The notes under the pieces were generated by a model. The model saw nothing but the letters and a program-made list of their open reading frames with translations. It did not search any database and was not told where the DNA came from. 62,177 nt of DNA from a virus. Within the stretch, counting starts at the first letter, position 1, and each line of letters begins with the position of its first letter. Shown here in pieces: positions 7,411 to 61,916 of this stretch. A program made the position numbers and the translations under genes. Where the stretch lies: positions 1 through 62,177 of IMG/VR virus record IMGVR_UViG_3300032323_001402. One strand, given 5' to 3'.

Positions 7411-7950
7411 ATGGCAAAATATATTTCAACAAAAACTTACGGTAACGAACAAGGGCTTTCATGCTGTTTTAGACAGTGGAGAAGCACACATTCACATTGC
7501 TCACTACTACACGGATATTCTATCGGTGTTCGTGTTCATTTCGAAAGTGAGACCTTAGACGATCGAAATTGGGTCATGGACTTCGGCGGGCTTAAAGCAT
7601 TTAAGGCATGGTTAGAACACATGTTCGATCATACTTTAGTAATTGCAGAGGACGATCCTTATCTGTCACAATTCAAAGACATGGCAGCATTAGGATTACA
7701 AGATCAAGGTGGGATTTGTGATCTTAGAATTGTTCCAGCAGTCGGCTGCGAAAAATTCTCAGAATTAGCATTTAAAACCCTAGACGAAATTATCAAAACC
7801 TATCAAGCAGGTCAATCGTGGCATCTTAAAAATGATAAAGGCGGTACTTTGAAAACCTTTGAATGTCGATATCCTGTAGGACAAGGTGTTACTCTGCGTT
7901 CAGTAGAAGTGTTTGAACACGGTGCTAACTCCGCGATCTACGAAGGATAA
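7411..7950 (+). CDS. queD: QueD-like 6-carboxy-tetrahydropterin synthase
   Basis: 179 residues; start ATG 7411 chosen because AAAGGAG lies at 7397-7403. QueD/PTPS proteins convert 7,8-dihydroneopterin triphosphate to 6-carboxy-tetrahydropterin on the way to 7-deazaguanines. Visible family signs: an N-terminal THSHCSLLHGY segment with the candidate catalytic Cys and zinc-binding His residues, VMDFGGLKAFKAWLEHMFDHTL in the middle, and a C-terminal VEVFEHGANSAIY. The usual HGH zinc motif reads HGY, as I recall also for other phage homologues. It partners with folE (60279) and dpdA (55148), both far away in this window. Confidence 0.8.
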   Translation: MAKYISTKTYGNEQGLSCCFRQWRSTHSHCSLLHGYSIGVRVHFESETLDDRNWVMDFGGLKAFKAWLEHMFDHTLVIAEDDPYLSQFKDMAALGLQDQGGICDLRIVPAVGCEKFSELAFKTLDEIIKTYQAGQSWHLKNDKGGTLKTFECRYPVGQGVTLRSVEVFEHGANSAIYEG

Positions 7951-9649: not shown

Positions 9650-10427
9650 ACAACAAAGGAAACTTCGCAAAGCACTGTTGAAATCGGAAAAAGAAAATCA
9701 ACAGGCTTTAGATAATATTGATCCTAATGTTAAGATTACTGTGCTGTGTGTTCGCTTTGGCAACAAATATGGCAGAGAGTATGTAGAAAGATTACGTAAC
9801 ATGGTCTCGCGACATATGACCATACCCTACGAGTTTGTGTGTCTCACAGATGATCAACACCCAATCACCGGTGTTCGTAGTATCGTACAGCCTAACGCAA
9901 ACTACGCTCGCGGTTGGTGGCACAAGGTTCATATGTTTGATCCTAATATTCCACTGACTGGACGCATCTTATACTTTGATCTAGATGTTGTAATACATGC
10001 TAACATCGATAAACTTGCAGGATATCTCGCCACAGAATTCGTAGGTATACATGATTTCAATAGAAAATTCCATGCCAATTGGAAATATCTCAACAGCAGT
10101 GTGTTAGCATGGAATCACGGAAGCCAAACTGATATTTGGAATCAGTTCAAAACCAACCCCAGAGAAGCACAACGCCTAGCAGGAGATCAAGATTGGATTT
10201 GGAAACTGTGCAGAGATAAAATTAAATTTTGGCCTAGAGAATGGATACAGAGTTATAAATGGGAAATACGCAGTCGAGAAGAATTAACTTTAGTCAATGG
10301 TAGACGACAGTTCACTAATGTGCGTGATGACGTAGTCATTGAGCCCGGATGTTCTGTTGCAGTCTTTCACGGTGATCCAAATCCCTGTGCAGTACGAGAT
10401 AAATTTGTACTTGACAACTGGCGATAA
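9621..10427 (+). CDS. Putative GT-A type glycosyltransferase
   Basis: 268 residues, ATG inside the last codons of kdsA (29-base overlap). After a basic N-terminal helix, a Rossmann-like strand ([11 protein letters not shown]) leads to [16 protein letters not shown] near residue 118, a DxD-type metal and nucleotide-sugar motif. Later [10 protein letters not shown] and [10 protein letters not shown] resemble acceptor regions of phage and LPS glycosyltransferases. Between kdsA and a mannomutase, a role in surface-sugar modification is reasonable. Donor and acceptor unknown. Confidence 0.65.
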
Positions 10428-11127
10428 ATTTATTTTTGACGTAGACGGGACGCTAACTCCTAGTCGTGGTGTAATGGATCCTGATTTCAAAAAGTGGTTC
10501 CTACGTTTTATCAATCAATATTCCGTAATACTAATCTCAGGCAGTGACCGTGATAAAACTATAGAACAGGTTGGGTTGGACATTGTAGAAAATGTTGAGT
10601 ACTGTTTTAACTGTGCAGGTAATGTTGTTTATCATAAAAATCAATTAGTACATCAATCTACGTGGACTCCACCATCAGAATTAATTGACCAGCTTACCTA
10701 CGCATTGGTACGTAGCCCCTGGCCCACCCGCAATGGCAATCACATTGAAATTCGAACCGGACTAGTAAACTTCAGTGTCATCGGACGTAACTGTACTCAT
10801 GAACAGCGTGAAGAATATTATCATTGGGATCAAGAACATCAAGAAAGAGCTGAGATTTGTAAAAGATTAAAAGAGCTATTGCCCGATCTTACATTTGAAA
10901 TTGGTGGACAGATCAGTATTGATATATTCCCCAATGGACATGATAAATCTCAAATATTATCATACATAAAACAACCGGTTATATTCTTCGGGGATCGTAT
11001 GGAACCCGGAGGCAACGATTATGCATTGGCTCAATCTATACTTGACAACGCTCAAGGAAGATGTTATAATGTTATTAACTGGACCGATACACAGAAAGAG
11101 TTATTAAAATTATGCTCAAACGATTAG
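10411..11127 (+). CDS. Eukaryotic-type phosphomannomutase (HAD family)
   Basis: 238 residues if translation starts at TTG 10411 ([15 protein letters not shown]), overlapping the previous gene by 17 bases; there is no ATG at the expected place. It interconverts mannose-6- and mannose-1-phosphate for GDP-mannose. The HAD nucleophile motif is DVDGTLTPS. The diagnostic cap signature of the PMM2 family is present: IGRNCTHEQREEYYHWD and FEIGGQISIDIFPNGHDKSQ, then FFGDRMEPGGNDY. Bacterial phosphomannomutases usually belong to a different fold, so the eukaryote-like type stands out. A consensus promoter for uvdE is embedded near its 3' end. Confidence 0.8.
   Translation: MTTGDKFIFDVDGTLTPSRGVMDPDFKKWFLRFINQYSVILISGSDRDKTIEQVGLDIVENVEYCFNCAGNVVYHKNQLVHQSTWTPPSELIDQLTYALVRSPWPTRNGNHIEIRTGLVNFSVIGRNCTHEQREEYYHWDQEHQERAEICKRLKELLPDLTFEIGGQISIDIFPNGHDKSQILSYIKQPVIFFGDRMEPGGNDYALAQSILDNAQGRCYNVINWTDTQKELLKLCSND
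11042..11070 (+). promoter_or_regulatory. Consensus sigma70-type promoter inside the mannomutase gene
   Basis: TTGACA at 11042-11047 and TATAAT at 11065-11070 with a 17-bp spacer, entirely within coding sequence. It would start transcripts near 11077, ahead of uvdE at 11112. Confidence 0.75.
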
Positions 11128-12134
11128 GCTTTGCCTGCAAATGGATCAATGATCCCTCCGAAGTTTCCGGAATGAAAATTAATGCTGTTGATCGCGACTT
11201 AAATACAGGAGCTACCACAGTTAGGTGGTTGCGTGAACATCCTCAAGAAGCAGAACAGCGGCTTTGGGATTTAATGAAAAGAAACATTGAAGCCTGCTAC
11301 AAGTTGGTAGATAGGGTAGGGACATTAGATGAAAATCTTAGAATGGTACGACTCAGCAGCGATATACTTCCTGTATACACTGAGCCTAGTTGGAAGTGGT
11401 TTTGGCGGCAGTCCGATGTCAGAACCTTTGCAGAAAGAGAGTTTGCCCGAGTCGGTGATTTGGCTAGGAAGAGTGATGTTAGGCTCAGCTTTCATCCTGG
11501 GCAGTTTTGCGTGTTGGCGTCTGATAACCCTGACATTGTAGAACGATCAATAGAAGAATTTGAATATCACGTAGACATGGCTCGATGGATGGGCTATGGC
11601 AAAACATTTCAAGACTACAAGATCAATGTACACATTGCAGGACGCCAAGGTCCACCCGGTGTTCGTGCAGCACTAAATCGCATGACTCCAGAAGCTCGTA
11701 ACTGTCTTACTATAGAAAATGATGAAATGACTTGGGGCATTGACTCCAGTCTTGAATTGGTCAATGACTGTGCCCTAGTGCTTGACATACATCACCATTG
11801 GGTAAAAACTGGAGAATACATTGAAGCCACTGATGACCGTGTTAAAAGGATTGGCGATAGCTGGCGTGGCGTTAGGCCTGTTATACATTACAGTGTGTCA
11901 CGGGAAGACTGTCTTATTGACCATCCCGAACACATCCGCCCCGATCTTCCATCGCTCTTAGAGCAGGGTTACAAAAAAGCCAAACTTCGAGCACACAGTG
12001 GCTTTTATTGGAACACTGCGGTAAATGATTGGGCCTTAACGTTCAGACCATATGCAGATATCATGTGCGAAAGCAAAGCAAAGAATCTTGCTAGCTTTGC
12101 ACTATATCAACAGGCATTACGCCTTGGGCTTTGA
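11112..12134 (+). CDS. uvdE: UV damage endonuclease UvdE
   Basis: 340 residues, within the usual length of bacterial UvsE/UVDE. The enzyme nicks 5' to cyclobutane dimers and 6-4 photoproducts. TIM-barrel metal-site motifs are visible: LSFHPGQFCVLAS, INVHIAG, CLTIENDEMTWG, LVLDIHHHWV and KAKLRAHSGFYW. The ATG overlaps the end of the mannomutase gene by 16 bases, and a consensus promoter lies 42-70 bases upstream. Useful to a phage in sunlit water. Its 3' end overlaps a convergent small gene by 18 bases. Confidence 0.9.
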   Translation: MLKRLGFACKWINDPSEVSGMKINAVDRDLNTGATTVRWLREHPQEAEQRLWDLMKRNIEACYKLVDRVGTLDENLRMVRLSSDILPVYTEPSWKWFWRQSDVRTFAEREFARVGDLARKSDVRLSFHPGQFCVLASDNPDIVERSIEEFEYHVDMARWMGYGKTFQDYKINVHIAGRQGPPGVRAALNRMTPEARNCLTIENDEMTWGIDSSLELVNDCALVLDIHHHWVKTGEYIEATDDRVKRIGDSWRGVRPVIHYSVSREDCLIDHPEHIRPDLPSLLEQGYKKAKLRAHSGFYWNTAVNDWALTFRPYADIMCESKAKNLASFALYQQALRLGL

Positions 12135-12356: not shown

Positions 12357-12917
12357 ATGACGCTACATTTTATTAAAAGTTTAACAGAAACTAAAGACAA
12401 TCGAGAAATTCGTCAGGACAAACTGAAGTTCCCTAAAGATGCGTTGGATCCTGTAATGAGTGAAGCTACTATTAAATATCACTTCGATGGCTTAGCCAGC
12501 AAGTATTTTGATCGTTACAATGCAGGCGAAGGCGATGCGGATTTCAACTACGGTGGTGCGATGCTGCACAACATTTGGTTTTCAAACCTCACTCCGCCCA
12601 GAGCTGCTAATAAGCCTCAAGGACTTAGCCTAGATCTCATAGATTCTAAATACACTAGTTTTGATAAATTTAAAGAAGAGTTTGAAAAAACTGCTATGTC
12701 AATTCAGGGCAGCGGTTGGATATATATGGATAAGTCGGGTGAAATCCGAACTATTCGCAATCACGAATACAAAAAGAACATGAAGATTGCACTGTTGATC
12801 GATTGGTGGGAGCATGCATGGGCCCTTGATTATCAACAGGACAAAGCCAAATATCTACAAAACATTTGGCGAATCGTTGATTGGGAAACCGTCAACATTA
12901 GACTACAAGGAGAATGA
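12357..12917 (+). CDS. sodB: Fe/Mn superoxide dismutase
   Basis: 186 residues, usual for the family. It dismutates superoxide, probably in the host cytoplasm or virion (no signal peptide). Metal ligands: His in TIKYHFDGLASKYFD, His in GGAMLHNIWF, and Asp and His in DWWEHAWALDYQ. The GSGWIYM segment and C-terminal WRIVDW also fit. Fe versus Mn preference cannot be settled by eye. Behind a perfect late box with a leaderless start. The next gene overlaps it by 4 bases (ATGA), so a run of microproteins and iscU follow from it. Confidence 0.85.
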   Translation: MTLHFIKSLTETKDNREIRQDKLKFPKDALDPVMSEATIKYHFDGLASKYFDRYNAGEGDADFNYGGAMLHNIWFSNLTPPRAANKPQGLSLDLIDSKYTSFDKFKEEFEKTAMSIQGSGWIYMDKSGEIRTIRNHEYKKNMKIALLIDWWEHAWALDYQQDKAKYLQNIWRIVDWETVNIRLQGE

Positions 12918-34937: not shown

Positions 34938-35852
34938 ATGAAAGAACTATGGGTAGAAAAATACCGTCCTAAAGACCTAAGTGGTTATGTTTTTAGAGAT
35001 GATCACCAACGCAAACAAATTGAAACGTGGATTAAAGATCAATCTATTCCTCATTTGATTTTTAGTGGAAGTGCAGGTATTGGCAAAACTACTCTTGCAA
35101 AAATTCTTGTTCATCAATTAGGCATTGAGGATTATGATGTATTAGAGATTAATGCAAGTCGTACAAACTCAGTAGATGATGTTCGAGATAAAATTACTAA
35201 CTTTGTACAGATGATTCCATTTGGGCCATTTAAAGTTGTGTTACTTGACGAGGCTGATTATTTGTCACCTAACGCACAGGCAGCACTTCGTGGTGTTATG
35301 GAAGAGTATCATGCAACAAGTCGATTCATTCTAACTTGTAACTATCCTAATCGTATTATTCCTGCTATACATAGTCGCTGTCAAGGTTTTCACGTCGAAC
35401 GAACAGATCAAACGGAATTCACTGCTCGTGTTGCTACAATTCTTGTAGAAGAAAATGTAGAATTTGATCTCGAAACACTAGACTCATATGTTAAAGTAAC
35501 GTATCCAGATTTACGTAAATGTATCAATATGGTACAACAAAATGTCAACGAAGACAAATTAAATGCTCCTAACAAAGGTGACGCTGGCGAAGCCGACTGG
35601 AAGTTTGATATGGTTAGTTTGTTTCAAGCTGGCAAAATTAACGAAGCTCGTAAAATGCTATGTGGTAAACTTCGTGCAGAGGAAATGGAAGAAGTATATC
35701 GTTGGCTTTATGACAACCTTTCAATCTTCGGTGAAGAACAGAAACAAGATTCTGCGATATTAATTATCAAACAAGGACTAGTAGATCATACTATTTGCGT
35801 AGATTCAGAAGTTAATCTAGCAGCCACATTGGTAAAACTAGCACGTCTATGA
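34938..35852 (+). CDS. 44: Clamp loader ATPase subunit (gp44-like)
   Basis: 304 residues. An AAA+ ATPase that, with gp62, loads the sliding clamp at primer-template junctions. Motifs: [12 protein letters not shown] at the N-terminus (typical RFC/gp44 start), Walker [10 protein letters not shown] (residues 44-52), Walker [12 protein letters not shown] (~96-106), sensor 1 [10 protein letters not shown], and the SRC arginine finger in IHSRCQGF. In T4 it lies beside genes 45, 62 and 43; here it is 17 kb from 43 and 45. No gp62 was recognised nearby. It overlaps the ferredoxin gene by 4 bases. Confidence 0.9.
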
Positions 35853-51677: not shown

Positions 51678-54347
51678 ATGAGTTACGTAGACGCTTTCTA
51701 TGATAGAGAGCAGGACGTTATCAATGTCGTTGAACGTGACGACAAAGGTAACAGACATTTCAAAGAATATCCCGCACGGCATATTTTCTATTATCCTGAT
51801 CCAAAGGGCAAATATCTTTCAATTAAAGGTGAACCGTTAAGCCGTGTTACCAGCAAGAATGTTAAAGAACATCGTAAAGAACTTGCGATTCACAGTAACA
51901 AACGATTATTCGAAAGTGACATCAATCCAATTTATCGTTGTCTAGAAGACAACTACCTGAATGCCGATGCCCCAAAACTAAATGTAGCTTGGTTCGACAT
52001 TGAGGTGGACTTTGATCCAGAACGTGGTTACGCATCGCCAGAAGATGCATTCATGCCAATTACTGCGATTGCCGTTCAATTACAATGGATGGACACTATG
52101 GTGTGTTTGGCATTGCCCCCTAAGACGCTGTCAATGGAAGAAGCAACTAAGCAGGTTGCAGAATTTCCTAACACTATGTTGTTCGAGACAGAAGGCGAGA
52201 TGCTAGACACGTTTCTTAACTTAATTGAAGATGCAGATGTATTAAGTGGCTGGAACAGTGAAGGCTTTGATATTCCTTACACCGTTAATCGTGTCACTAA
52301 GGTATTGAGCAAAGAAGACACTCGACGTTTTTGTTTATGGAATCAGTATCCTAAGAAACGTGAATATGAAAAATATGGTAAGAGTGCAGTTACATATGAT
52401 TTAATTGGTCGTGTACACTTAGACTCGTTGGAACTATATAGAAAATACACATATGAAGAACGCCATACATATCGATTAGATGCTATCGGTGAGATGGAGA
52501 TTGGTGAAAACAAAACAGTCTACGAAGGCACACTTGATCAATTATACAACAATGACTTCCGTAAGTTTATTGAGTACAACAGACAAGACTGTGCGTTGCT
52601 TGATAAACTAGACAAAAAACTCAAGTTCTTAGCTCTTGCTAACACCCTGGCGCATGAATGTACTGTGTTGTTGCAGACTACTATGGGAGCAGTGGCAGTT
52701 ACTGAACAAGCAATTATTAATGAATCACACCGCCGCGGACTTATTGTTCCTAATCGTATACAGCGTGATCCTAATGACAGTAATCAAGCAGCAGGTGCGT
52801 ATGTTGCGTATCCGAAAAAAGGCATTCACGAATGGATCGGCTCACTAGATATTAACTCACTATATCCATCTGCGATTCGTGCATTAAACATGGGTCCAGA
52901 AACTATTGTTGGACAGTTACGTCAAGACGGTACCAAAGACTTTATTGCGGCAGAGATAGGCAAAGGAAAATCTTTTGCCAGTGCTTGGGAAGGTGTGTTT
53001 GGTAGTCTAGAATATACTGCTGTAATGAATCGTGAAGTAGGCCGAGAAATCACTATCGATTGGGAAGACGGTGGTAATGACACATTAAGTGCTGCTCAAG
53101 CCTACGACTTAATTTTTGAAAGTAATCAACCTTGGATGCTCAGTGCTAACGGCACAATCTTTACTTACGAAAAAGAAGGTATCATTCCCGGACTGTTAAA
53201 GCGTTGGTATGCAGAGCGTAAAGACATGCAGACTAAATTAAAAGAATGTATTCAAGCAGGAAATAAAATTGAAGAAGAATATTGGGACAAACGTCAACTG
53301 GTTAAAAAGATTAACCTCAATAGCTTATACGGTGCTATTCTTAACCCTGGTTGCAGGTTCTTTGATAATCGTATTGGCCAATCCACAACTCTTACCGGCA
53401 GAGCCGTTGCTCGTCATATGGCTGGGAAAGTAAATGAAATTATTACCGGAGAGAACGATCACATTGGTAAAGCAATTATCTATGGTGATACAGACTCTTG
53501 TTATTTTTCTGCATACAGTACGCTGAAGAAAGATATTGAAAAAGGATTAATTCCTTGGAGCCGTGAAAATATTATTGATCTTTATGATAGCATAGGAGAA
53601 GAAGTAAATGGCACATTTCCAAAGTTTATGCAAGACGCATTCCACTGTCCAAAAGTCAGAGGTGAAGTCATCAAAGCAGGTCGCGAGATTGTTGCTTCCA
53701 AAGGACTATTCATTACTAAAAAACGATATGCAGTCCTCTACTACGACAAAGAAGGCAAACGAACAGACACAGACGGCAGCCCTGGTAAGATTAAAGCCAT
53801 GGGGCTTGACCTAAAGAGATCGGATACTCCTGTAGTCATCCAAGACTTTTTAAGTGAAGTACTTACTAAGGTTCTTAACGGTGCTGCTAAAGAAGAAGTT
53901 CTCGAATATATTACCGACTTCCGTACTGAATTTAAAACCCGTCCAGGTTGGGAGAAAGGTAGTCCTAAACGTGCCAATAATATTTCCGAATATGCTGCTA
54001 AGGAAAAGAAAGCAGGTAAGACCAACATGCCCGGACACGTTCGTGCTAGTTTGAATTGGAATACCCTAAAGCGTATGATGGATGACAAGTATTCTGTGAC
54101 TATTACTGACGGTGCTAAAGTCATTGTATGTCGTCTTAAAAACAATCCTATGGGGCATACTTCAGTGGCATATCCTGTAGACGAATTGCGTTTACCACAG
54201 TGGTTTAAAGATCTACCGTTCGACGATGCAGAAATGGAAACCACAGTCATCGATGAAAAATTAGAAAACCTAATTGGTGTTTTGGAATGGGACATCAGTT
54301 CAACTCGCAGTGATAATACATTCAGCAAATTATTTGATTTTGATTAA
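51678..54347 (+). CDS. 43: Family B DNA polymerase (gp43)
   Basis: 889 residues, about the T4 length. The replicative polymerase with 3'-5' proofreading. Exo I FDIEVDF (~106), Exo II SGWNSEGFDIPY, Exo III YNRQDCALL. Polymerase motif A SLDINSLYPSAIR (~390), motif B KKINLNSLYGAILN (~545) and motif C IYGDTDSCYF (~600). All catalytic acids are present. The C-terminal end LFDFD probably binds the clamp (a similar LFDFD occurs near the end of DpdA). A strong TAAGGAG site lies after the hairpin leader. Confidence 0.97.
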   Translation: MSYVDAFYDREQDVINVVERDDKGNRHFKEYPARHIFYYPDPKGKYLSIKGEPLSRVTSKNVKEHRKELAIHSNKRLFESDINPIYRCLEDNYLNADAPKLNVAWFDIEVDFDPERGYASPEDAFMPITAIAVQLQWMDTMVCLALPPKTLSMEEATKQVAEFPNTMLFETEGEMLDTFLNLIEDADVLSGWNSEGFDIPYTVNRVTKVLSKEDTRRFCLWNQYPKKREYEKYGKSAVTYDLIGRVHLDSLELYRKYTYEERHTYRLDAIGEMEIGENKTVYEGTLDQLYNNDFRKFIEYNRQDCALLDKLDKKLKFLALANTLAHECTVLLQTTMGAVAVTEQAIINESHRRGLIVPNRIQRDPNDSNQAAGAYVAYPKKGIHEWIGSLDINSLYPSAIRALNMGPETIVGQLRQDGTKDFIAAEIGKGKSFASAWEGVFGSLEYTAVMNREVGREITIDWEDGGNDTLSAAQAYDLIFESNQPWMLSANGTIFTYEKEGIIPGLLKRWYAERKDMQTKLKECIQAGNKIEEEYWDKRQLVKKINLNSLYGAILNPGCRFFDNRIGQSTTLTGRAVARHMAGKVNEIITGENDHIGKAIIYGDTDSCYFSAYSTLKKDIEKGLIPWSRENIIDLYDSIGEEVNGTFPKFMQDAFHCPKVRGEVIKAGREIVASKGLFITKKRYAVLYYDKEGKRTDTDGSPGKIKAMGLDLKRSDTPVVIQDFLSEVLTKVLNGAAKEEVLEYITDFRTEFKTRPGWEKGSPKRANNISEYAAKEKKAGKTNMPGHVRASLNWNTLKRMMDDKYSVTITDGAKVIVCRLKNNPMGHTSVAYPVDELRLPQWFKDLPFDDAEMETTVIDEKLENLIGVLEWDISSTRSDNTFSKLFDFD

Positions 54348-54407: not shown

Positions 54408-55145
54408 ATGAAAGACATTTTACAAGACATCGTAAGTCATACACAAAACCTTGGCTTCCTAACAACTGTTAAAGTTTCAGGAACTGAACAAGGTACAACT
54501 ATTAACTCAATGGCTGATGACCGTTCAGTTATTATGGAGGCTGAGACTGCTAATCCATATCCAGACATGTTAGGTGTGTTTGGTATGCCACAACTACAAA
54601 AACTCAAATATCTATTAGATGGTGCTGAGTACAAAGACGATGCTAAAATTAGTATCACGACAGCAGAACGCAACGGAGAAACTATTCCAGTTGGCATTCA
54701 CTTTGAAAACAAAGACAGTGACTTTAAAAACGACTATCGTTTTATGTCTACTGAAGTTATTAACGAAAAGATGAAAACTGTTAAGTTTCGTGGAGTTAAA
54801 TGGGACGTTGAAGTTGATCCTAGTGTTAGTGCTGTGCAACGTTTCAACTTCCAGGCAGGCGCAAATTCAGAGCATCCAACATTTCTTGCTAAAACAGATG
54901 GTGGCAATTTGAAATTTATCTTTGGCGATGCAAGCACACACGGTGGTGAGTTTATTTTTGCACAAAATGTTGAAGGTAAATTAGATCGTGGCTGGACATG
55001 GCCAGTGTTACCAATCTTGAGCATTCTTAAGATTGCAGATGTTAACAACACTAAGATGTCATTATCAAATGAAGGTGCTATTCAAATCACTTTAGATAGC
55101 GGACTTGCTACTTACAAATACATTATTCCAGCTCAGGCAGCCTAA
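54408..55145 (+). CDS. 45: Sliding clamp (gp45-like)
   Basis: 245 residues, near the T4 length (228). A trimeric ring that tethers gp43 to DNA and, in T4, activates late transcription. Clamp-like features: NLGFLTTVKVSGTEQGTTINSM, PYPDMLGVFGMPQLQKLKYLL and the C-terminal GAIQITLDSGLATYKYIIPA. Own consensus promoter and GGAG site; dpdA begins three bases after its stop, linking clamp and DNA-modification expression. Confidence 0.85.
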   Translation: MKDILQDIVSHTQNLGFLTTVKVSGTEQGTTINSMADDRSVIMEAETANPYPDMLGVFGMPQLQKLKYLLDGAEYKDDAKISITTAERNGETIPVGIHFENKDSDFKNDYRFMSTEVINEKMKTVKFRGVKWDVEVDPSVSAVQRFNFQAGANSEHPTFLAKTDGGNLKFIFGDASTHGGEFIFAQNVEGKLDRGWTWPVLPILSILKIADVNNTKMSLSNEGAIQITLDSGLATYKYIIPAQAA

Positions 55146-55147
55146 AT

Positions 55148-56755
55148 ATGAAACAACCAGTTGATCTAACACCGTTGCAGAAAGATTATGCAGTATACTT
55201 ACCAGCTATCAGTGCTTTTTATAGCACGTATGTTGCCAAGCAACGTTTAGAAAAGTTTATTTCAGACGATCGTATTCCTGCGGGATTTGATCGTGGTGTT
55301 GAAGGTATGAACTTCCTAAATCCCGAACAAGGCTATTTCTTTTACAAATACGGTTTGTATTCGGCAGGTCATGCACAACTTGATTTGCAAAAGAGTCTTG
55401 TACAAGAATCAATGATTCAAGATCGAGATCGTTCAAAGACAATGATCTTAGGTGACTCCGGCGGGTATCAGATTGGTAAAGGTGTTCTTAAGTTTGACTG
55501 GTTAAACTTTGAAGGTGCAGAAGCTACTAAGACTCGTCAGAAAATTCTTGAATGGTTAGAACTTACTGCTGATTGGTCAATGATGCTAGACGTTCCGACA
55601 TGGGCTTGTGATCATATTCACAGTCCAAAAACTGGATTAAAGACATTTGAAGATTGTTTAGAAAAGACTCGGTATAATAACGATTATTTCTTAATGAATC
55701 GGTTAGGAGCCACTAAATGGCTTAATGTACTACAAGGTTCAGATTGGGATACTGCTGAGAAATGGTATAACGGTGTTAAAGAGTTTAGCGATCCAAATGG
55801 CAAGTATGCTGGACGTGAAGCAGAAGGGTGGGCCATGGGTGGTGCTAATATGTGCAAAATGGACATTACTCTCAAACGACTGATGACTATGCGTGAAGAT
55901 GGCTTGTTAAAAGGCAAGAACTGGATGCACTTCTTGGGTACAGCTCAGTTAGATTGGTCATGTTACTTAACTCTTATCCAACGTCAGATCAGAAAGCATA
56001 TCAATCCAGAGATTACAATCAGTTTCGACTGTGCATCACCGTTCATTGCTACTGCACACGGACTTGTTTATACTAATGCTGTTCACACTAACAAGCGTTG
56101 GTCGGTGATTATGGACAAGGCTCCAGATAATAAAGCACTTGCTAACTCAGATATTCCGTTTCCGTTTGAAAGTGAGTTTGCTTCTAGACTTGTTATGGGC
56201 GATATTGCATATTACGACTACGGTGTTCGTAAGACTGATGAAGAACTAGGTGACGTTAAATTTAATCACTTAGATCCATCACATTATAATGTTGTGCCTA
56301 AACTTAATAAACTAGGTAAGATTCCAAACAAAACATCGTGGGATAGTTTTGCTTACGCACTAATGATGGGTCATAATGTTGAATGTCATATTGTTGCGGT
56401 ACAACGTGCTCAACAGTTGATGGACATTGAATGTGCGAGATTTAAACCAGATTGGCGTATGAAGAGCATTGAAGGCAAGAAAGAAATTGAATTCAGCGAT
56501 TGGGTTCCTAATAGAATTCTATATTTTGCGGCCTTTGTTGAAGAACTATTTAATACTAAAACTAAAGCAGAAGCATTCCAATTAATTTCGGATGCTGCTG
56601 GATTCCTAAAGAGCTTAGAAGGTTCACGCTTACAGGGCGGTCCTGCTGCAAACACTTTTGGCAGTTTGTTTGATTTTGATGATGGCAAAAAGTCTGCAGA
56701 AATTGACTTTTCAAATCCCGATGATGACGATCTAAATAGCTTAGTCGTTGAATAA
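55148..56755 (+). CDS. dpdA: DpdA-like DNA 7-deazaguanine transglycosylase
   Basis: 535 residues. A paralogue of tRNA-guanine transglycosylase that exchanges guanine in DNA for a 7-deazaguanine such as preQ0. Active-site motifs: MILGDSGGYQIGKG (residues ~99-112; TGT has TDSGGFQ) and SFDCASPFIATAHGLVYT (~291-308; TGT has FDCVLPTRNARNG), giving the two Asp residues. The middle (HFLGTAQLDWSCYLTL) matches the TGT barrel. It lacks a plain CxCxxC zinc motif. The NTFGSLFDFDDG segment near the end resembles the LFDFD tail of gp43 and may be a clamp-binding peptide, which would place DpdA at the replication fork. Co-transcribed with gp45. Confidence 0.85.
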   Translation: MKQPVDLTPLQKDYAVYLPAISAFYSTYVAKQRLEKFISDDRIPAGFDRGVEGMNFLNPEQGYFFYKYGLYSAGHAQLDLQKSLVQESMIQDRDRSKTMILGDSGGYQIGKGVLKFDWLNFEGAEATKTRQKILEWLELTADWSMMLDVPTWACDHIHSPKTGLKTFEDCLEKTRYNNDYFLMNRLGATKWLNVLQGSDWDTAEKWYNGVKEFSDPNGKYAGREAEGWAMGGANMCKMDITLKRLMTMREDGLLKGKNWMHFLGTAQLDWSCYLTLIQRQIRKHINPEITISFDCASPFIATAHGLVYTNAVHTNKRWSVIMDKAPDNKALANSDIPFPFESEFASRLVMGDIAYYDYGVRKTDEELGDVKFNHLDPSHYNVVPKLNKLGKIPNKTSWDSFAYALMMGHNVECHIVAVQRAQQLMDIECARFKPDWRMKSIEGKKEIEFSDWVPNRILYFAAFVEELFNTKTKAEAFQLISDAAGFLKSLEGSRLQGGPAANTFGSLFDFDDGKKSAEIDFSNPDDDDLNSLVVE

Positions 56756-58248: not shown

Positions 58249-58506
58249 ATGGCTAAGAATTATACTGATTACAAGTATTTTGAAAACCGTCCTGACGTCG
58301 TTAGGATCTTCAACGATCTTGAGGCGTACTTGGATTACTGTAGGATTACCCTACAACCCTTTAACCCAGCAGAATTATACAAAAAAGATTCTGCAACCTA
58401 TCAGGCTTACCTTAACAGTAAGCGACCACGCAGACCGTGGGTAGATAGAAATAACGGAGATCGCGGTCACAGCCGCAAACCATATGGCCAGAATTTTTCT
58501 CGTTGA
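58249..58506 (+). CDS. Conserved small basic protein
   Basis: 85 residues, GAGG ribosome site. N-terminal YTDYKYFENRPDVVRIFNDLEAYLDYCRI is helical; the C-terminal NSKRPRRPWVDRNNGDRGHSRK is very basic and probably disordered, suitable for RNA or DNA contact. It overlaps the glycosyltransferase start by 23 bases. Function unknown. Confidence 0.6.
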   Translation: MAKNYTDYKYFENRPDVVRIFNDLEAYLDYCRITLQPFNPAELYKKDSATYQAYLNSKRPRRPWVDRNNGDRGHSRKPYGQNFSR

Positions 58507-59560
58507 TCTTGAAGCTGTAGAAACAAGGTACACAGGTGAGTGGAAATCCCACTTGCCTGCATTACTACGAAAGGAAGGACACAATGTTCAAATTATCTCT
58601 GGGCCTGAGGATATTCCTAAAGCCACTACTCCTGGTGCTTTTCTTAATTTTGGTGGCACCAATATATATAAGTCTAGTCAAGTTGAACAGATGGGGAGGT
58701 TGTTTTGTAACGGATCCGTTCATGCTGGCGACCACTTTATTTTTACTGATGCTTGGCATCCGGGCATTATAAACTTAAAGTATATGAGTGAACTGTTACA
58801 GATTCCTATAACTATTCACGCACTGTGGCATGCAGGTAGTTATGATCCACAGGACTTCTTAGGTCGTCTTATTGGTGATGCTAAGTGGGTGCGGCACAGC
58901 GAACTGGCATTCTTTGAGGCTATTGATTATAACTACTTTGCTACAGACTTTCATGTTAACATGTTTATTGAAAACTTGTTAAACGAAGAAAAGAGAACTG
59001 GTCGCATTCGTTACATGCCAAATGGAAAAATTACACGCAGTGGATGGCCAATGGAATATATGTCTGATACATTGTTGATGTATAAGAATATGCCAAAACG
59101 TGATCTTATTTTATTTCCGCATCGCATTGCACCAGAGAAACAAGTTGAGATTTTTAGAGATCTTAAAGAACACTTGCCACAATATGAATTTGTTATTTGC
59201 CAGGAACAACAATTATCAAAGAACGAATATCATAATTTATTAGGTGAAGCCAAGCTAGTGTTCAGTGCTAATCTACAAGAAACACTAGGTATTAGTTGGT
59301 ACGAAGGTGCAGTAGTAGATGCTATCCCGATGGTTCCAGATCGATTAAGCTACAGTGAAATGGCAATTGACCCATTTAAATATCCTAGCGAATGGACAGA
59401 ATCGTTTGCTGCATATACTGTACACAAACAAAAAGTAATCGATGCGATCGTTGATCATATGGAAAATTATAAAAACCGATTACCAGGCCTAAATAAACAG
59501 GTCGATTTATTAAAAGAAAACTTTTTTAGTTGCAACGAACTATTAAAGATATTAAAATAA
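58484..59560 (+). CDS. GT-B fold glycosyltransferase
   Basis: 358 residues. The C-terminal half reads as a GT4-like donor domain: LILFPHRIAPEKQVEIFRDL, YEFVICQE, ANLQETLGISWYEGAVVDAIPMVPDRLSY (the E-x(7)-E-type donor site). The N-terminal half has the acceptor Rossmann fold (ALLRKEGHNVQIISG, FIFTDAWHPGIIN). It could glycosylate a surface glycan or, given neighbours dpdA and folE, modified DNA. The acceptor cannot be read from the sequence. Confidence 0.7.
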   Translation: MARIFLVDLEAVETRYTGEWKSHLPALLRKEGHNVQIISGPEDIPKATTPGAFLNFGGTNIYKSSQVEQMGRLFCNGSVHAGDHFIFTDAWHPGIINLKYMSELLQIPITIHALWHAGSYDPQDFLGRLIGDAKWVRHSELAFFEAIDYNYFATDFHVNMFIENLLNEEKRTGRIRYMPNGKITRSGWPMEYMSDTLLMYKNMPKRDLILFPHRIAPEKQVEIFRDLKEHLPQYEFVICQEQQLSKNEYHNLLGEAKLVFSANLQETLGISWYEGAVVDAIPMVPDRLSYSEMAIDPFKYPSEWTESFAAYTVHKQKVIDAIVDHMENYKNRLPGLNKQVDLLKENFFSCNELLKILK

Positions 59561-59576
59561 CTATAGAGGACAATCT

Positions 59577-60191
59577 ATGCCAGCAGCAGCTTCTTTATTT
59601 GGTGTTCCTATTTACTCATCTGAGGTAGATCCGATCTCTTCTAAAAGTATTGACTACATTGTAAATTTACCGTTTGAAAGGATGGAAAACGGGTTTATTA
59701 CTAATGATGTTACATTATTAGATAATCCCAACTGTTTAGAAATTAGAAATAAAGTTCTCAACGCATTTGATGATTATGTTTATAATCTTTTAAAAATTAA
59801 ACCCGAGACAGAATTTTATATGACCACTTCATGGGCTGTTAAATTTTTGCCGGGTGGTTCTGCACATGAACATAGTCATGTCAATTCGTTATTTTCGGGA
59901 GTGTTATATCTAAAGGCAGCAGAAGAGACAGGACAGATTACATTTCACAAACACCAAAAATATTTAAATTTTTCTTCTCCCACAATTAGTTTAGAATTTT
60001 CAGAACAAAATACTTTTAATAGTAGTACATGGTCTATCACTCCAATTGAAAATCAGATAATTATTTTTCCTTCAAATGTAATGCATTCAGTAGAAATAAA
60101 CAATTCTAAGGATGATAGAATTTCCGTTGCATTTAACATGTTTGTTAGAGGAAATTTTGGAGGTAGAGAAGCAGCATTGTCAATAAAATGA
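59577..60191 (+). CDS. 2-oxoglutarate/Fe(II) oxygenase (TIGR02466-like)
   Basis: 204 residues. The family signature is AVKFLPGGSAHEHSHVNSLFSGVLYL: iron-binding His residues near 94-98. GQITFHKH follows, then the distal IIFPSNVMHSVEIN His and DDRISVAFNMFV with the 2-oxoglutarate Arg. A different subfamily from the oxygenase at 8206. Substrate unknown; the family is common in marine phages and often near glycan or base-modification genes. AGAGGA precedes the ATG. Confidence 0.78.
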   Translation: MPAAASLFGVPIYSSEVDPISSKSIDYIVNLPFERMENGFITNDVTLLDNPNCLEIRNKVLNAFDDYVYNLLKIKPETEFYMTTSWAVKFLPGGSAHEHSHVNSLFSGVLYLKAAEETGQITFHKHQKYLNFSSPTISLEFSEQNTFNSSTWSITPIENQIIIFPSNVMHSVEINNSKDDRISVAFNMFVRGNFGGREAALSIK

Positions 60192-60278: not shown

Positions 60279-61043
60279 TTGACAACATTTACATCAGAAG
60301 ATTTACAAAGCGCACTTAAAGGTGCAGACGACATGAGCGACAAAGGCTATGAAGAAGGATATCTAGGCGATGCTATTCGCTTTAAGATGAAACGTGATAA
60401 GAAAAGGTTTTGGGCAGGTGACAACGTTAGTGATTACATTACTGATAGCGACAAAGAAAAACTAATAGACGAAGCAACAGAAGCATTTGAAACGGTGCTT
60501 GATCGTTTGCTAATTGATCGTGAGAATGATCCTAACAGCCAAGGTACAGCCCGTCGTCTTGCTAAAATGTATTTTAACGAAATTATGGGCGGTCGATATG
60601 ATCCAGCACCAGATGCAACAGCTTTTCCAAATGATTCGTCTGATAGATATGAAGGCATGCTTGTTGTTCGTAGCGAACTGCGGTCTATGTGCAGTCATCA
60701 TCATCAACCTGTGTCTGGTGTTGCTTACATCGGAATCATCGCCGCTAATAAACTTATTGGCCTGTCTAAATATACTAGGATCGCTCAGTGGTGTGCTCGT
60801 CGTGGCACACTTCAAGAAGAACTATGTAACGACATAGCCCGTGAGATCATGAAGGCCACTGAGTCTGAAAACGTAGCAGTCTACATTCAAGCAATTCATG
60901 GATGCTGTGAGAATCGTGGCATTATGGCACATTCATCGTTAACTCAAACTACAGTATTGAAAGGTGCTTTCCAGACAGACCCAGGAACTAAAAAAGAGTT
61001 CATGGACAATGTTAAACTACAACAAGAGTTTGCGCCACGATAA
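60279..61043 (+). CDS. folE: GTP cyclohydrolase I
   Basis: 254 residues from a TTG start with GGAGAA upstream; an in-frame ATG further in would still keep the catalytic core. It converts GTP to dihydroneopterin triphosphate, the first step to pterins and, through QueD, to 7-deazaguanines. Zinc ligands: MCSHHHQP (~137-142) and CCENRGI (~208). Also KLIGLSKYTRIAQWCARR and TQTTVLKGAF. With queD and dpdA it supports a DNA 7-deazaguanine pathway. The N-terminal 60 residues are longer than in E. coli. It overlaps the next gene by one base. Confidence 0.9.
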   Translation: MTTFTSEDLQSALKGADDMSDKGYEEGYLGDAIRFKMKRDKKRFWAGDNVSDYITDSDKEKLIDEATEAFETVLDRLLIDRENDPNSQGTARRLAKMYFNEIMGGRYDPAPDATAFPNDSSDRYEGMLVVRSELRSMCSHHHQPVSGVAYIGIIAANKLIGLSKYTRIAQWCARRGTLQEELCNDIAREIMKATESENVAVYIQAIHGCCENRGIMAHSSLTQTTVLKGAFQTDPGTKKEFMDNVKLQQEFAPR

Positions 61044-61453
61044 TGTTTAATCCTCTTCGAGACGATCTAATGGTACAACAACAGATCACTAATAGTTGGG
61101 AACACATGGTAGGAGTTATCATGTTAAATCAAACCGGAAGAAAGGCAGTAAAAACTACACTGCCTGAATTCCTATATTGGTTTCCTACAGCGTTATCATT
61201 ATTACACGCAGACGAAGAATTTGTTAAAAGCATAATCCAACCGTTGGGCATGGCAAATGTTCGTTACACTCGTTTGATTAAAATGAGTCAAGACTATTTA
61301 ACTTGGGACGGAAATGATGCCAACAAATTGTTTGGCATTGGCAAGTATGGCAGCGACAGCTATGAAATCTTTTTTAAAAAGAACTATGCTGTTCAACCTA
61401 CAGATAAAGAATTAAAAAGGTACCTAGAGGAAGAGGTTTGCAATGTTTCTTAA
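61043..61453 (+). CDS. MBD4-like HhH DNA glycosylase
   Basis: 136 residues. It resembles the catalytic domain of eukaryotic MBD4 rather than typical bacterial MutY or Nth: HMVGVIMLNQTGRKAV (MBD4 has IATIFLNRTSGKMA), FLYWFPTALSLLHADEE, IIQPLGMANVRYTRLIKMSQDYL, then GIGKYGSDSYEIF (hairpin-helix-hairpin; MBD4 has GIGKYGNDSYRIF). The catalytic Asp is kept in QPTDKELKRYL near residue 120. There is no Fe-S cluster loop. MBD4 removes thymine or uracil opposite guanine. Coupled to folE by a one-base overlap; overlaps the next gene by 11 bases. Confidence 0.75.
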   Translation: MFNPLRDDLMVQQQITNSWEHMVGVIMLNQTGRKAVKTTLPEFLYWFPTALSLLHADEEFVKSIIQPLGMANVRYTRLIKMSQDYLTWDGNDANKLFGIGKYGSDSYEIFFKKNYAVQPTDKELKRYLEEEVCNVS

Positions 61454-61916
61454 ACTGTTAGAAAAACTTGGTCGTAAGCGTATCATTTATGATCGTATCT
61501 GCAACGAACCTTATCTAGAAAGGTATTATCTTTTCTTGAAAGATAGAAATCTATTTCCTTTTAATATATTTTTACACAAGTTTTTAAAAGGTGATCCAGA
61601 CGATGTGCATGATCATCCATGGCCATATGCTACCCTAATTCTTAAAGGTGGCTACTATGAATGGATTCCTCAGTTTAACGCAGACGGAACAAAAAGTTGC
61701 GAAGTGCGCAAGTGGCGTGGTCCAGGGCATTTTCGAGTATGTAAATCACATTCATATCATCGCATTGAATTGAAACATGGTGTAACTGCATGGACATTGT
61801 TCATGCCAGGTCCTCATAAACGTGAATGGGGATTTTTAGTTAATAACAAATGGATACAACACGAACAGTATCTAAAAGGTCGTAAGGAGAATCATGTCAA
61901 AAAAACGACAGGTTAG
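61443..61916 (+). CDS. Cupin-like conserved phage protein
   Basis: 157 residues. PDDVHDHPWPYATLILKGGYYEW and SHSYHRIELKHGVTAWTLFMPG give the His-rich strand pairs of a cupin metal-binding barrel. The last residues, from KENHVKKTTG, overlap the start of the next gene. Cupins include dioxygenases, epimerases and ligand-binding proteins, so the role cannot be given. As I recall, present in other marine T4-like phages. Confidence 0.6.
   Translation: MFLKLLEKLGRKRIIYDRICNEPYLERYYLFLKDRNLFPFNIFLHKFLKGDPDDVHDHPWPYATLILKGGYYEWIPQFNADGTKSCEVRKWRGPGHFRVCKSHSYHRIELKHGVTAWTLFMPGPHKREWGFLVNNKWIQHEQYLKGRKENHVKKTTG

Follow-up and report, generated by a model that had tools for sequence, protein, structure and literature searches.

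The analyzed window is an entire virus record (IMG/VR IMGVR_UViG_3300032323_001402) of 62,177 bases. A family B DNA polymerase gene is found at 51678-54347 (phrog_262, E 8e-199; PF00136), followed by the gene of a 245-aa sliding clamp with PCNA fold at 54408-55145 and by dpdA at 55148-56755, a 535-aa ORF with ATG start for a predicted DNA guanine transglycosylase with the fold of tRNA-guanine transglycosylases (TGTs). A gene for a GT-B (GT4-like) glycosyltransferase at 58484-59560 and folE for GTP cyclohydrolase I at 60279-61043 lie further downstream. The queD gene, encoding an HGY variant of 6-carboxytetrahydropterin synthase, is located at 7411-7950, read from its ATG, and a clamp-loader-like AAA ATPase gene at 34938-35852 (PF00004, E 2.4e-15; PF13177, E 1.1e-13; weak Gp44_lid match). 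All of these genes are encoded on the plus strand. A 2OG-Fe(II) oxygenase gene (59577-60191, PF13759) and a cysteine-dioxygenase-like ORF (61443-61916, phrog_4786) are near folE, which is adjoined by an HhH-GPD DNA-glycosylase-like ORF (61043-61453, PF00730). A gene for a UvdE-type UV endonuclease (11112-12134, PF03851, E 3e-38) is found close to a phosphomannomutase-like gene (10339-11127) and an Fe/Mn superoxide dismutase gene (12357-12917).

Relatives of the 535-aa ORF are encoded in 552 IMG/VR stretches, a conservation beyond chance, and the best 80 of the 552 were retained. An alignment of 231 rows was composed of the window and 230 IMG/VR loci among the matches listed, some of them near-identical or taken twice from the same contig. 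Thirteen phage records possess a dpdA homolog, annotated as hypothetical protein in every case, and 11 of the 13 are PA5oct/Paride-type Pseudomonas phages. Many loci were found with alignment queries and two with the Phosso protein as single query, among the matches listed, and single-protein viral scans with the PA5oct or Vibrio dpdA product as query returned no matches.

Folds of the predicted transglycosylase and the adjacent clamp

No match to the 535-aa product was obtained in Pfam, PHROGs, NCBIfam or PDB sequences (phmmer, and its profile against PDB sequences), and the TGT model PF01702 run on the record gave nothing relevant. Its identity was therefore resolved solely via the predicted structure. 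The AlphaFold2 model, built from an alignment of 71 diverse sequences, has a pLDDT of 89 and a pTM of 0.88. In a Foldseek search of the PDB, 50 of 50 among the matches listed are tRNA-guanine transglycosylases, with a best E of 1.9e-6, and the model aligns to the Thermotoga TGT over 305 residues with Z 20.0 and rmsd 4.6 (VIA-align). Its BFVD matches include the nt-1 protein R9TGF0 (464 aa) and a Motura protein named 'tRNA guanine transglycosylase'.

The sequence contains the motifs GDSGGYQ (D103), LDVP (D148), LQG, GWAMGG, HFLG and ISFD (D294). Residues D103, S104, G106, Q108, D148, G197, H261, L263, G264 and D294 are invariant in all 231 aligned rows, and by the motif order we take them to be the catalytic and base-binding residues of TGTs. 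Both TGT-type catalytic aspartates, D103 and D294, are present in TGT motif order in 231 of 231 rows; position 196, the Gln of LQG, is Ser in 77 of them. Profile alignment to E. coli TGT by hhalign is marginal (E 0.00095, probability 22%) and pairs LQGS with IQGS, GWAMGG with GYAVGG, and SFDCASP with MFDCVMP. The preliminary description had recognized DpdA at 55148 by active-site motifs, which is borne out by the TGT fold (Z 20) and by the invariance of these motifs. The CxCxxC zinc motif, which in its complete form had been named there as the mark of a tRNA enzyme, occurs in 0 of the 231 rows. On the evidence of the model, 55148-56755 encodes a divergent DpdA with TGT fold, ordinary in kind, with DNA as its presumed substrate.

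The dpdA gene starts 2 nt after the end of the clamp ORF (55145), which in turn follows the polymerase gene. The clamp product matches phrog_12062, a family of unknown function, and its profile found nothing relevant among PDB sequences, the best hit being a ribosomal protein at E 0.053, so its identity was settled by the fold search. The AlphaFold2 monomer model reaches pLDDT 94.2, and its best Foldseek matches are PCNA (E 5e-11, TM 0.6-0.7, about 0.65). The earlier placement of dpdA directly behind a clamp gene is thus confirmed, by the 2-nt gap and by the PCNA fold of the neighbor. Among the matches listed, 186 IMG/VR loci are distinct in dpdA DNA and extend at least 1.5 kb upstream; 184 of them have a clamp homolog no more than 2.5 kb before dpdA, and it is missing in L107 and L152. 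In 91 of the 184 loci with a clamp, no more than 100 nt separate it from dpdA. In many others (e.g. L003 and L006) the two genes stand about 350 nt apart, a spacer missing from the window. An initial tally, with a clamp in 238 of 240 loci, was dropped, as L093, L107 and L108 matched only the Phosso query, which has no similarity to the clamp.

Synthesis genes for 7-deazaguanine and a glycosyltransferase

A pathway of DpdA with FolE and QueD had been proposed for this DNA, and both synthesis genes proved real in the window: FolE matches PF01227 at E 3.3e-39, and QueD matches PF01242 at E 1e-14 and phrog_2389 at E 3.9e-35. Both are supported by Pfam and PHROGs, and their NCBIfam matches are under curated cut-offs. 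The folE ORF starts from TTG, and an ATG in the same frame follows at 60333. The zinc motif of QueD in the window is CSLLHGY, not CxxxHGH. This C-x3-H-G-Y subtype is common to the window and several DpdA1 operons (HD01, RHEph04, BcepGomr; L275, L279, L282), and HGH is retained in QueD of PA5oct and two relatives.

QueE and QueC had not been found in the preliminary description and were suspected elsewhere or replaced by host enzymes. Searches of the whole record for radical SAM (PF04055) and QueC (PF06508) domains gave no match at E of 0.1 or below, so that neither gene is in the window. For QueE the expectation of a location elsewhere held: of 12 regions fetched from long relatives, 11 have a QueE-like gene at a distance of 5.6-9.4 kb past dpdA, and the window stops 5.4 kb after dpdA. 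As the window is the whole record, genes past 62,177 are deduced via the relatives. The recurrent order in the 12 regions is clamp, dpdA, small genes, glycosyltransferase, FolE and QueE, with the glycosyltransferase in 12 of 12 (cut off in L106), FolE in 10 and the QueE-like gene in 11. FolE is absent in L102, and the region of L106 ends before FolE and QueE. Homologs of the HhH-GPD-like and cysteine-dioxygenase-like ORFs are also present in several of these regions. In the five cases checked, QueE ranks first among the NCBIfam matches, but under curated cut-offs. Radical SAM genes are clustered in some related records, with 19 (G001), 15 (G002) and 13 (G008) PF04055 matches per record (loci L030, L054 and L074), which seems unusual for phages.

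FolE is found in 9 of 10 long related records and QueD in 7 of 10 and 6 of 9 related records; QueD was not found in 3 of 10 and in 3 of 9, and the latter misses include the 256-311 kb contigs G022, G023 and G025. PA5oct possesses FolE, QueD and a 'QueE-like radical SAM' gene, and its complete genome gave no QueC match. Full-length QueC (PF06508) is present in one of 33 distinct related records, Vibrio phage 2.275.O (E 1.7e-51); six others have partial weak matches and 26 have none, many of the records being fragments. A hidden divergent copy of QueC in the relatives was considered and rejected, the matches in the six records being partial. Two matches to QueF (PF14489), both under the curated cut-off, occur in 2 of 12 records. 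In Vibrio 2.275.O the dpdA homolog lies one gene upstream of a group annotated as 7-cyano-7-deazaguanine reductase, vitamin uptake transporter, queuosine biosynthesis protein and GTP cyclohydrolase, and a QueE-like gene is also near it.

With QueC lacking from almost every record, the pathway encoded by the phages themselves would stop at 7-carboxy-7-deazaguanine, short of preQ0. Such a possibility was raised for mycobacteriophage Bipper by Hutinet et al., according to the available text (PMC6884629). Some known DpdA phages are described in the same text as lacking 7-deazaguanine synthesis genes, so these genes are supportive but not required for the assignment of DpdA. A real 7-deazaguanine pathway accompanies dpdA, and the base to be inserted is predicted from its genes.

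Two observations go beyond the preliminary description, the glycosyltransferase and a similar clamp arrangement in unrelated DpdAs. The glycosyltransferase in the window displays the EX7E motif (ETLGISWYE at 266) and HR....K. Glycos_transf_1 (PF00534) matches 18 of 29 family members at E of 0.05 or below, with a best E of 3.8e-6 and the window member unmatched, and the family profile gives weak matches to the PDB, the best being WlaC at E 0.03. Its ortholog in PA5oct, gp167 (41.7% identical), overlaps dpdA by one base. Of 98 distinct loci among the matches listed whose sequence extends 5.5 kb or more past dpdA, 77 have the glycosyltransferase downstream of this gene; in L152 it is found upstream. 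It is possible that the enzyme puts a sugar on the inserted base or acts on an unrelated target. To our knowledge, a glycosylated deazaguanine is not known from any DNA.

Tail motifs of DpdA and the DNA polymerase

Residues 495-524 of DpdA (56630-56719) are predicted to be disordered (pLDDT below 50) and contain LFDFD at residues 507-511 (56666-56680) in the context NTFGSLFDFD. The polymerase carries the same LFDFD at its C-terminus, FSKLFDFD (motif at 54330-54344). In PA5oct (L092, 5605-10831) a homing endonuclease gene divides the polymerase annotation into two parts. Tails of DpdA drift among relatives with the core hydrophobic-x-x-[LF]-F-[acidic or small] retained, and they often echo the polymerase encoded by their own phage, as in the pairs LNEFFEF/MQQFFEF and NDLFGW/TDLFDW. 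The motif is present in 28 of 39 representatives below 75% identity (mean 3.1 and maximum 10 in 2000 shuffles), in 94 of 131 below 95% identity (shuffle mean 9.4, maximum 20) and in 9 of 11 below 60% identity (shuffle mean 0.9, maximum 5), counts that are generous since the regular expression was written after the tails had been seen. The resemblance of the DpdA tail to the polymerase end, remarked upon in the preliminary description, therefore lies far beyond chance (28 of 39 against a shuffle mean of 3.1). In the 39 loci, 335 other plus-strand ORFs reach 120 aa or more; 55 of them also contain the motif in their last 50 residues, and these carriers are 33 of the 39 polymerase ORFs and 22 of the 296 remaining ORFs.

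The strict motif is missing in 11 of the 39 representatives, some of which have the variants KDIFD, DMWG or HFD. By eye, nothing recognizable as the motif was seen in the DpdA tails of L218, L236, L238 and L239, all with an adjacent clamp. In L152, where dpdA adjoins the glycosyltransferase, both the upstream clamp and the tail motif are absent; this is perhaps a natural uncoupled case, and the joint absence also fits a link between clamp and tail. The consensus of the PIP box is given as Qxxhxxaa (PMC3012046) and that of the beta-clamp motif as Q-phi-x-[LM]-[FL] (PMC11139829) in the available texts. The leading glutamine of the PIP box is missing from both the DpdA tail and the polymerase tail of the window; a PIP-like hydrophobic-aromatic core in a disordered tail is present in DpdA of the window as LFDFD.

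Polymerase and DpdA tails were also classified as FF or LF over 240 loci among the matches listed, including duplicates (195 with distinct dpdA DNA). FF-FF pairs were counted 30 times, LF-LF pairs 163 times and mismatches seven times, with a DpdA tail of neither class in 17, by a crude classifier, which assigned at least L236 to LF because of residues lying outside its tail. Placed on a tree, the pattern comes down to 3-4 independent changes; about 2.4 of 3 are in agreement and none in opposition, which is not significant. The covariation of the two tails is thus suggestive, with a small number of independent changes, and given that number the proposed clamp tether is not rested on it.

The same arrangement was found in DpdA1 proteins. 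In phage 9g, dpdA is beside a gene annotated as replicative clamp, followed by the polymerase gene. We sampled 15 DpdA1 loci, 9g and 14 others hand-picked to be diverse from 60 rows spread over 226 records. An annotated clamp, beta subunit or processivity factor is present in the fetched stretch of ten of them (9g, SLUR25, HD01, ply2008005c, Me-ZS1, RHEph04, VpKK5, K4PH164, ZHS and Dp-1); in the last two, at least two genes stand between dpdA and the clamp. ALK, BcepGomr and 2.117.O have an unannotated ORF of about 320 aa in the place of the clamp, and no clamp was found in the fetched stretches of Bipper and Hedgerow, which are short. LF is found in the last four residues of 12 of the 15 sampled DpdA1 proteins; that of ZHS ends with QSLW, and those of Bipper and Hedgerow end without similarity. 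When the first nine were aligned irrespective of their tails, LF was kept in 9 of 9 with varying preceding residues. In a later alignment of 12 rows (26-71% pairwise identity), LF makes up the sole invariant columns in the last 29 residues, partly by selection, because the three DpdA1 proteins without LF were excluded. QxxLF, near the beta-clamp motif, is present in 6 of the 12 LF-ending tails (e.g. QMELF and QPELF). As a control, an LF-type end was found in 0 of 35 other minus-strand coding sequences checked in 9g. The strongest argument for tethering comes from this comparison, in that the same arrangement is displayed by two DpdA families whose sequences show no detectable similarity and whose clamps are of two kinds.

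Proposed clamp tethering and comparison with known systems

We put at roughly 70% the probability that a clamp-tethered DpdA exchanges guanine for 7-deazaguanine behind the replication fork, with both the binding and the base as predictions. FolE and QueD from the window, together with QueE, seen beyond its end in relatives, would make 7-carboxy-7-deazaguanine, which may be used directly or converted first to preQ0 by host QueC. The motif in the flexible tail of DpdA, of the same kind as the polymerase end, would hold the enzyme on the PCNA-like clamp, where it would remove guanine from the phage's own DNA and insert the 7-deazaguanine. If held on the clamp, DpdA would work on freshly copied duplex DNA. 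As the best explanation, this mechanism is supported by the TGT fold, the catalytic motifs, the clamp fold, the co-occurrence of the pathway, the gene order and the tail motif. DNA as the substrate, the clamp binding, the exact base and a protection from restriction are inferred. Points that count against it are the absent PIP-box glutamine, the 11 of 39 representatives lacking the strict motif, the records in which QueD was not found, the tail of nt-1 DpdA2, and profiles that connect the family with neither DpdA1 nor DpdA2, besides the limited role ascribed to the gp45 contact in T4.

A true DpdA might also act untethered, its acidic disordered tail being kept for another reason and its adjacency to the clamp reflecting a shared replication operon. 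The lack of the strict motif in 11 of 39 representatives, the non-significant covariation and the ease with which short motifs are found post hoc would all fit, as would DpdA2 of phage nt-1, which has no such tail, yet the DNA of this phage is reported as modified at low levels (available text of PMC6884629). We consider this fairly unlikely, for the motif is found about nine times as often as in shuffles (28 of 39), resides outside DpdA mainly on the polymerase (33 of 39, against 22 of 296 for the remaining ORFs), and is repeated with the clamp in the unrelated DpdA1 proteins.

Very improbable to us is a phage TGT with tRNA as its substrate, for which FolE, QueD and QueE would contribute to the queuosine of host tRNA, even though the closest solved folds are tRNA TGTs and pathway phages without DpdA could boost host tRNA Q according to the available text of PMC6884629; the absence of CxCxxC from 231 rows, the lack of a Pfam TGT match and the fixed place beside clamp and polymerase argue against it. 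Lower still we rate a DNA enzyme of TGT fold that exchanges a base other than 7-deazaguanine. The absence of QueC from nearly all records, by which the phage genes alone would not end at preQ0, and Ser at position 196 in 77 of 231 rows point in that direction, but FolE, QueD and QueE are repeatedly found together in these genomes, with FolE and QueE even sharing a gene neighborhood, and the homolog in Vibrio 2.275.O is near QueC, QueF-like, FolE and QueE-like genes.

Should the clamp-tethered exchange be true, the phage genome would be disguised during copying by a base-swapper riding the replication clamp, little unmodified DNA would be left for restriction enzymes, and the tether could explain how DpdA finds phage DNA. 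The assignment also names a gene annotated 'hypothetical protein' in 13 of 13 phage records, including the PA5oct/Paride group of Pseudomonas phages. A wider proposal is more doubtful: clamp tethering might be general and repeatedly evolved in phage DNA transglycosylases (two DpdA families, two clamp kinds), making guanine exchange part of the replisome instead of a free post-replicative reaction, and the PA5oct-type GT-B enzyme might add a sugar to the inserted 7-carboxy-7-deazaguanine.

Profile comparison by hhalign of the DpdA family of the window gives E 0.27 to DpdA1 and E 0.18 to DpdA2 of nt-1, neither of them significant. Since the profiles tie it to neither, the family would be a subfamily of its own or belong to DpdA3 or DpdA4, which were reportedly treated together with dCDG by Cui et al. 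in 2023. DpdA1 (9g, CAjan and relatives) and DpdA of the window share membership in the TGT superfamily, folE/queD/queE in the genome, a dpdA beside clamp and polymerase genes (for DpdA1 in most sampled loci) and a C-terminal LF motif. They differ in length (317 aa in 9g, 535 aa in the window) with no significant profile similarity, in the clamp, annotated as beta-subunit/processivity-factor type in DpdA1 loci unlike the PCNA-fold clamp of the window, in phage QueC, present in most sampled DpdA1 clusters and mostly absent from relatives of the window type, and in the motif, which is at or near the extreme C-terminus in DpdA1 and internal to the tail in the window. Genetics of dpdA and mass spectrometry exist for coliphages 9g and CAjan, according to the available text (PMC6884629). 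The nt-1 protein, taken as DpdA2 by its length and phage, is a BFVD structural match at E 3.3e-9 with co-linear DSGG, D, HG, GG, H.LG and S[FY]D stretches. Unlike the window, it has no clamp annotated within the surrounding 23.5 kb and no LF tail. Low levels of dPreQ0, dADG and dG+ are reported from nt-1 DNA in the available text of PMC6884629.

A deazaguanine synthesis and incorporation system of PA5oct was already stated in 2021 (PMC7824862); its available text names the system of these same phages with no mention of the clamp, the tail motif, the glycosyltransferase or the lack of QueC. No mention of this pathway was found in the available text of the MIJ3 and PA5oct papers (PMC6892783, PMC6950013), and a 2026 review refers, in its available part, to predicted deazaguanine incorporation in jumbo phages (PMC13282480). 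No paper linking DpdA to a clamp was found among the matches listed, in a search that covered papers outside subscription. The proposed clamp link of DpdA, the wide conservation of its tail and the recurrence in unrelated DpdAs look new.

Parallels are also found in phages T4 and RB69. The T4 alpha-glucosyltransferase, which binds gp45 (PMC13216743), resembles the proposed DpdA as a DNA-modifying phage enzyme on the sliding clamp, and differs from it in glucosylating hmC with no base exchange. The available text of that 2026 paper does not regard the enzyme's contact with gp45 as chiefly responsible for the share of alpha-glucosylation (PMC13216743). The gp43 polymerase of RB69 docks its C-terminal PIP box in a pocket of the gp45 clamp, as described in the available text of PMC3012046. 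There the PIP box tethers the polymerase, and in the window a similar motif is carried by both the polymerase and DpdA.
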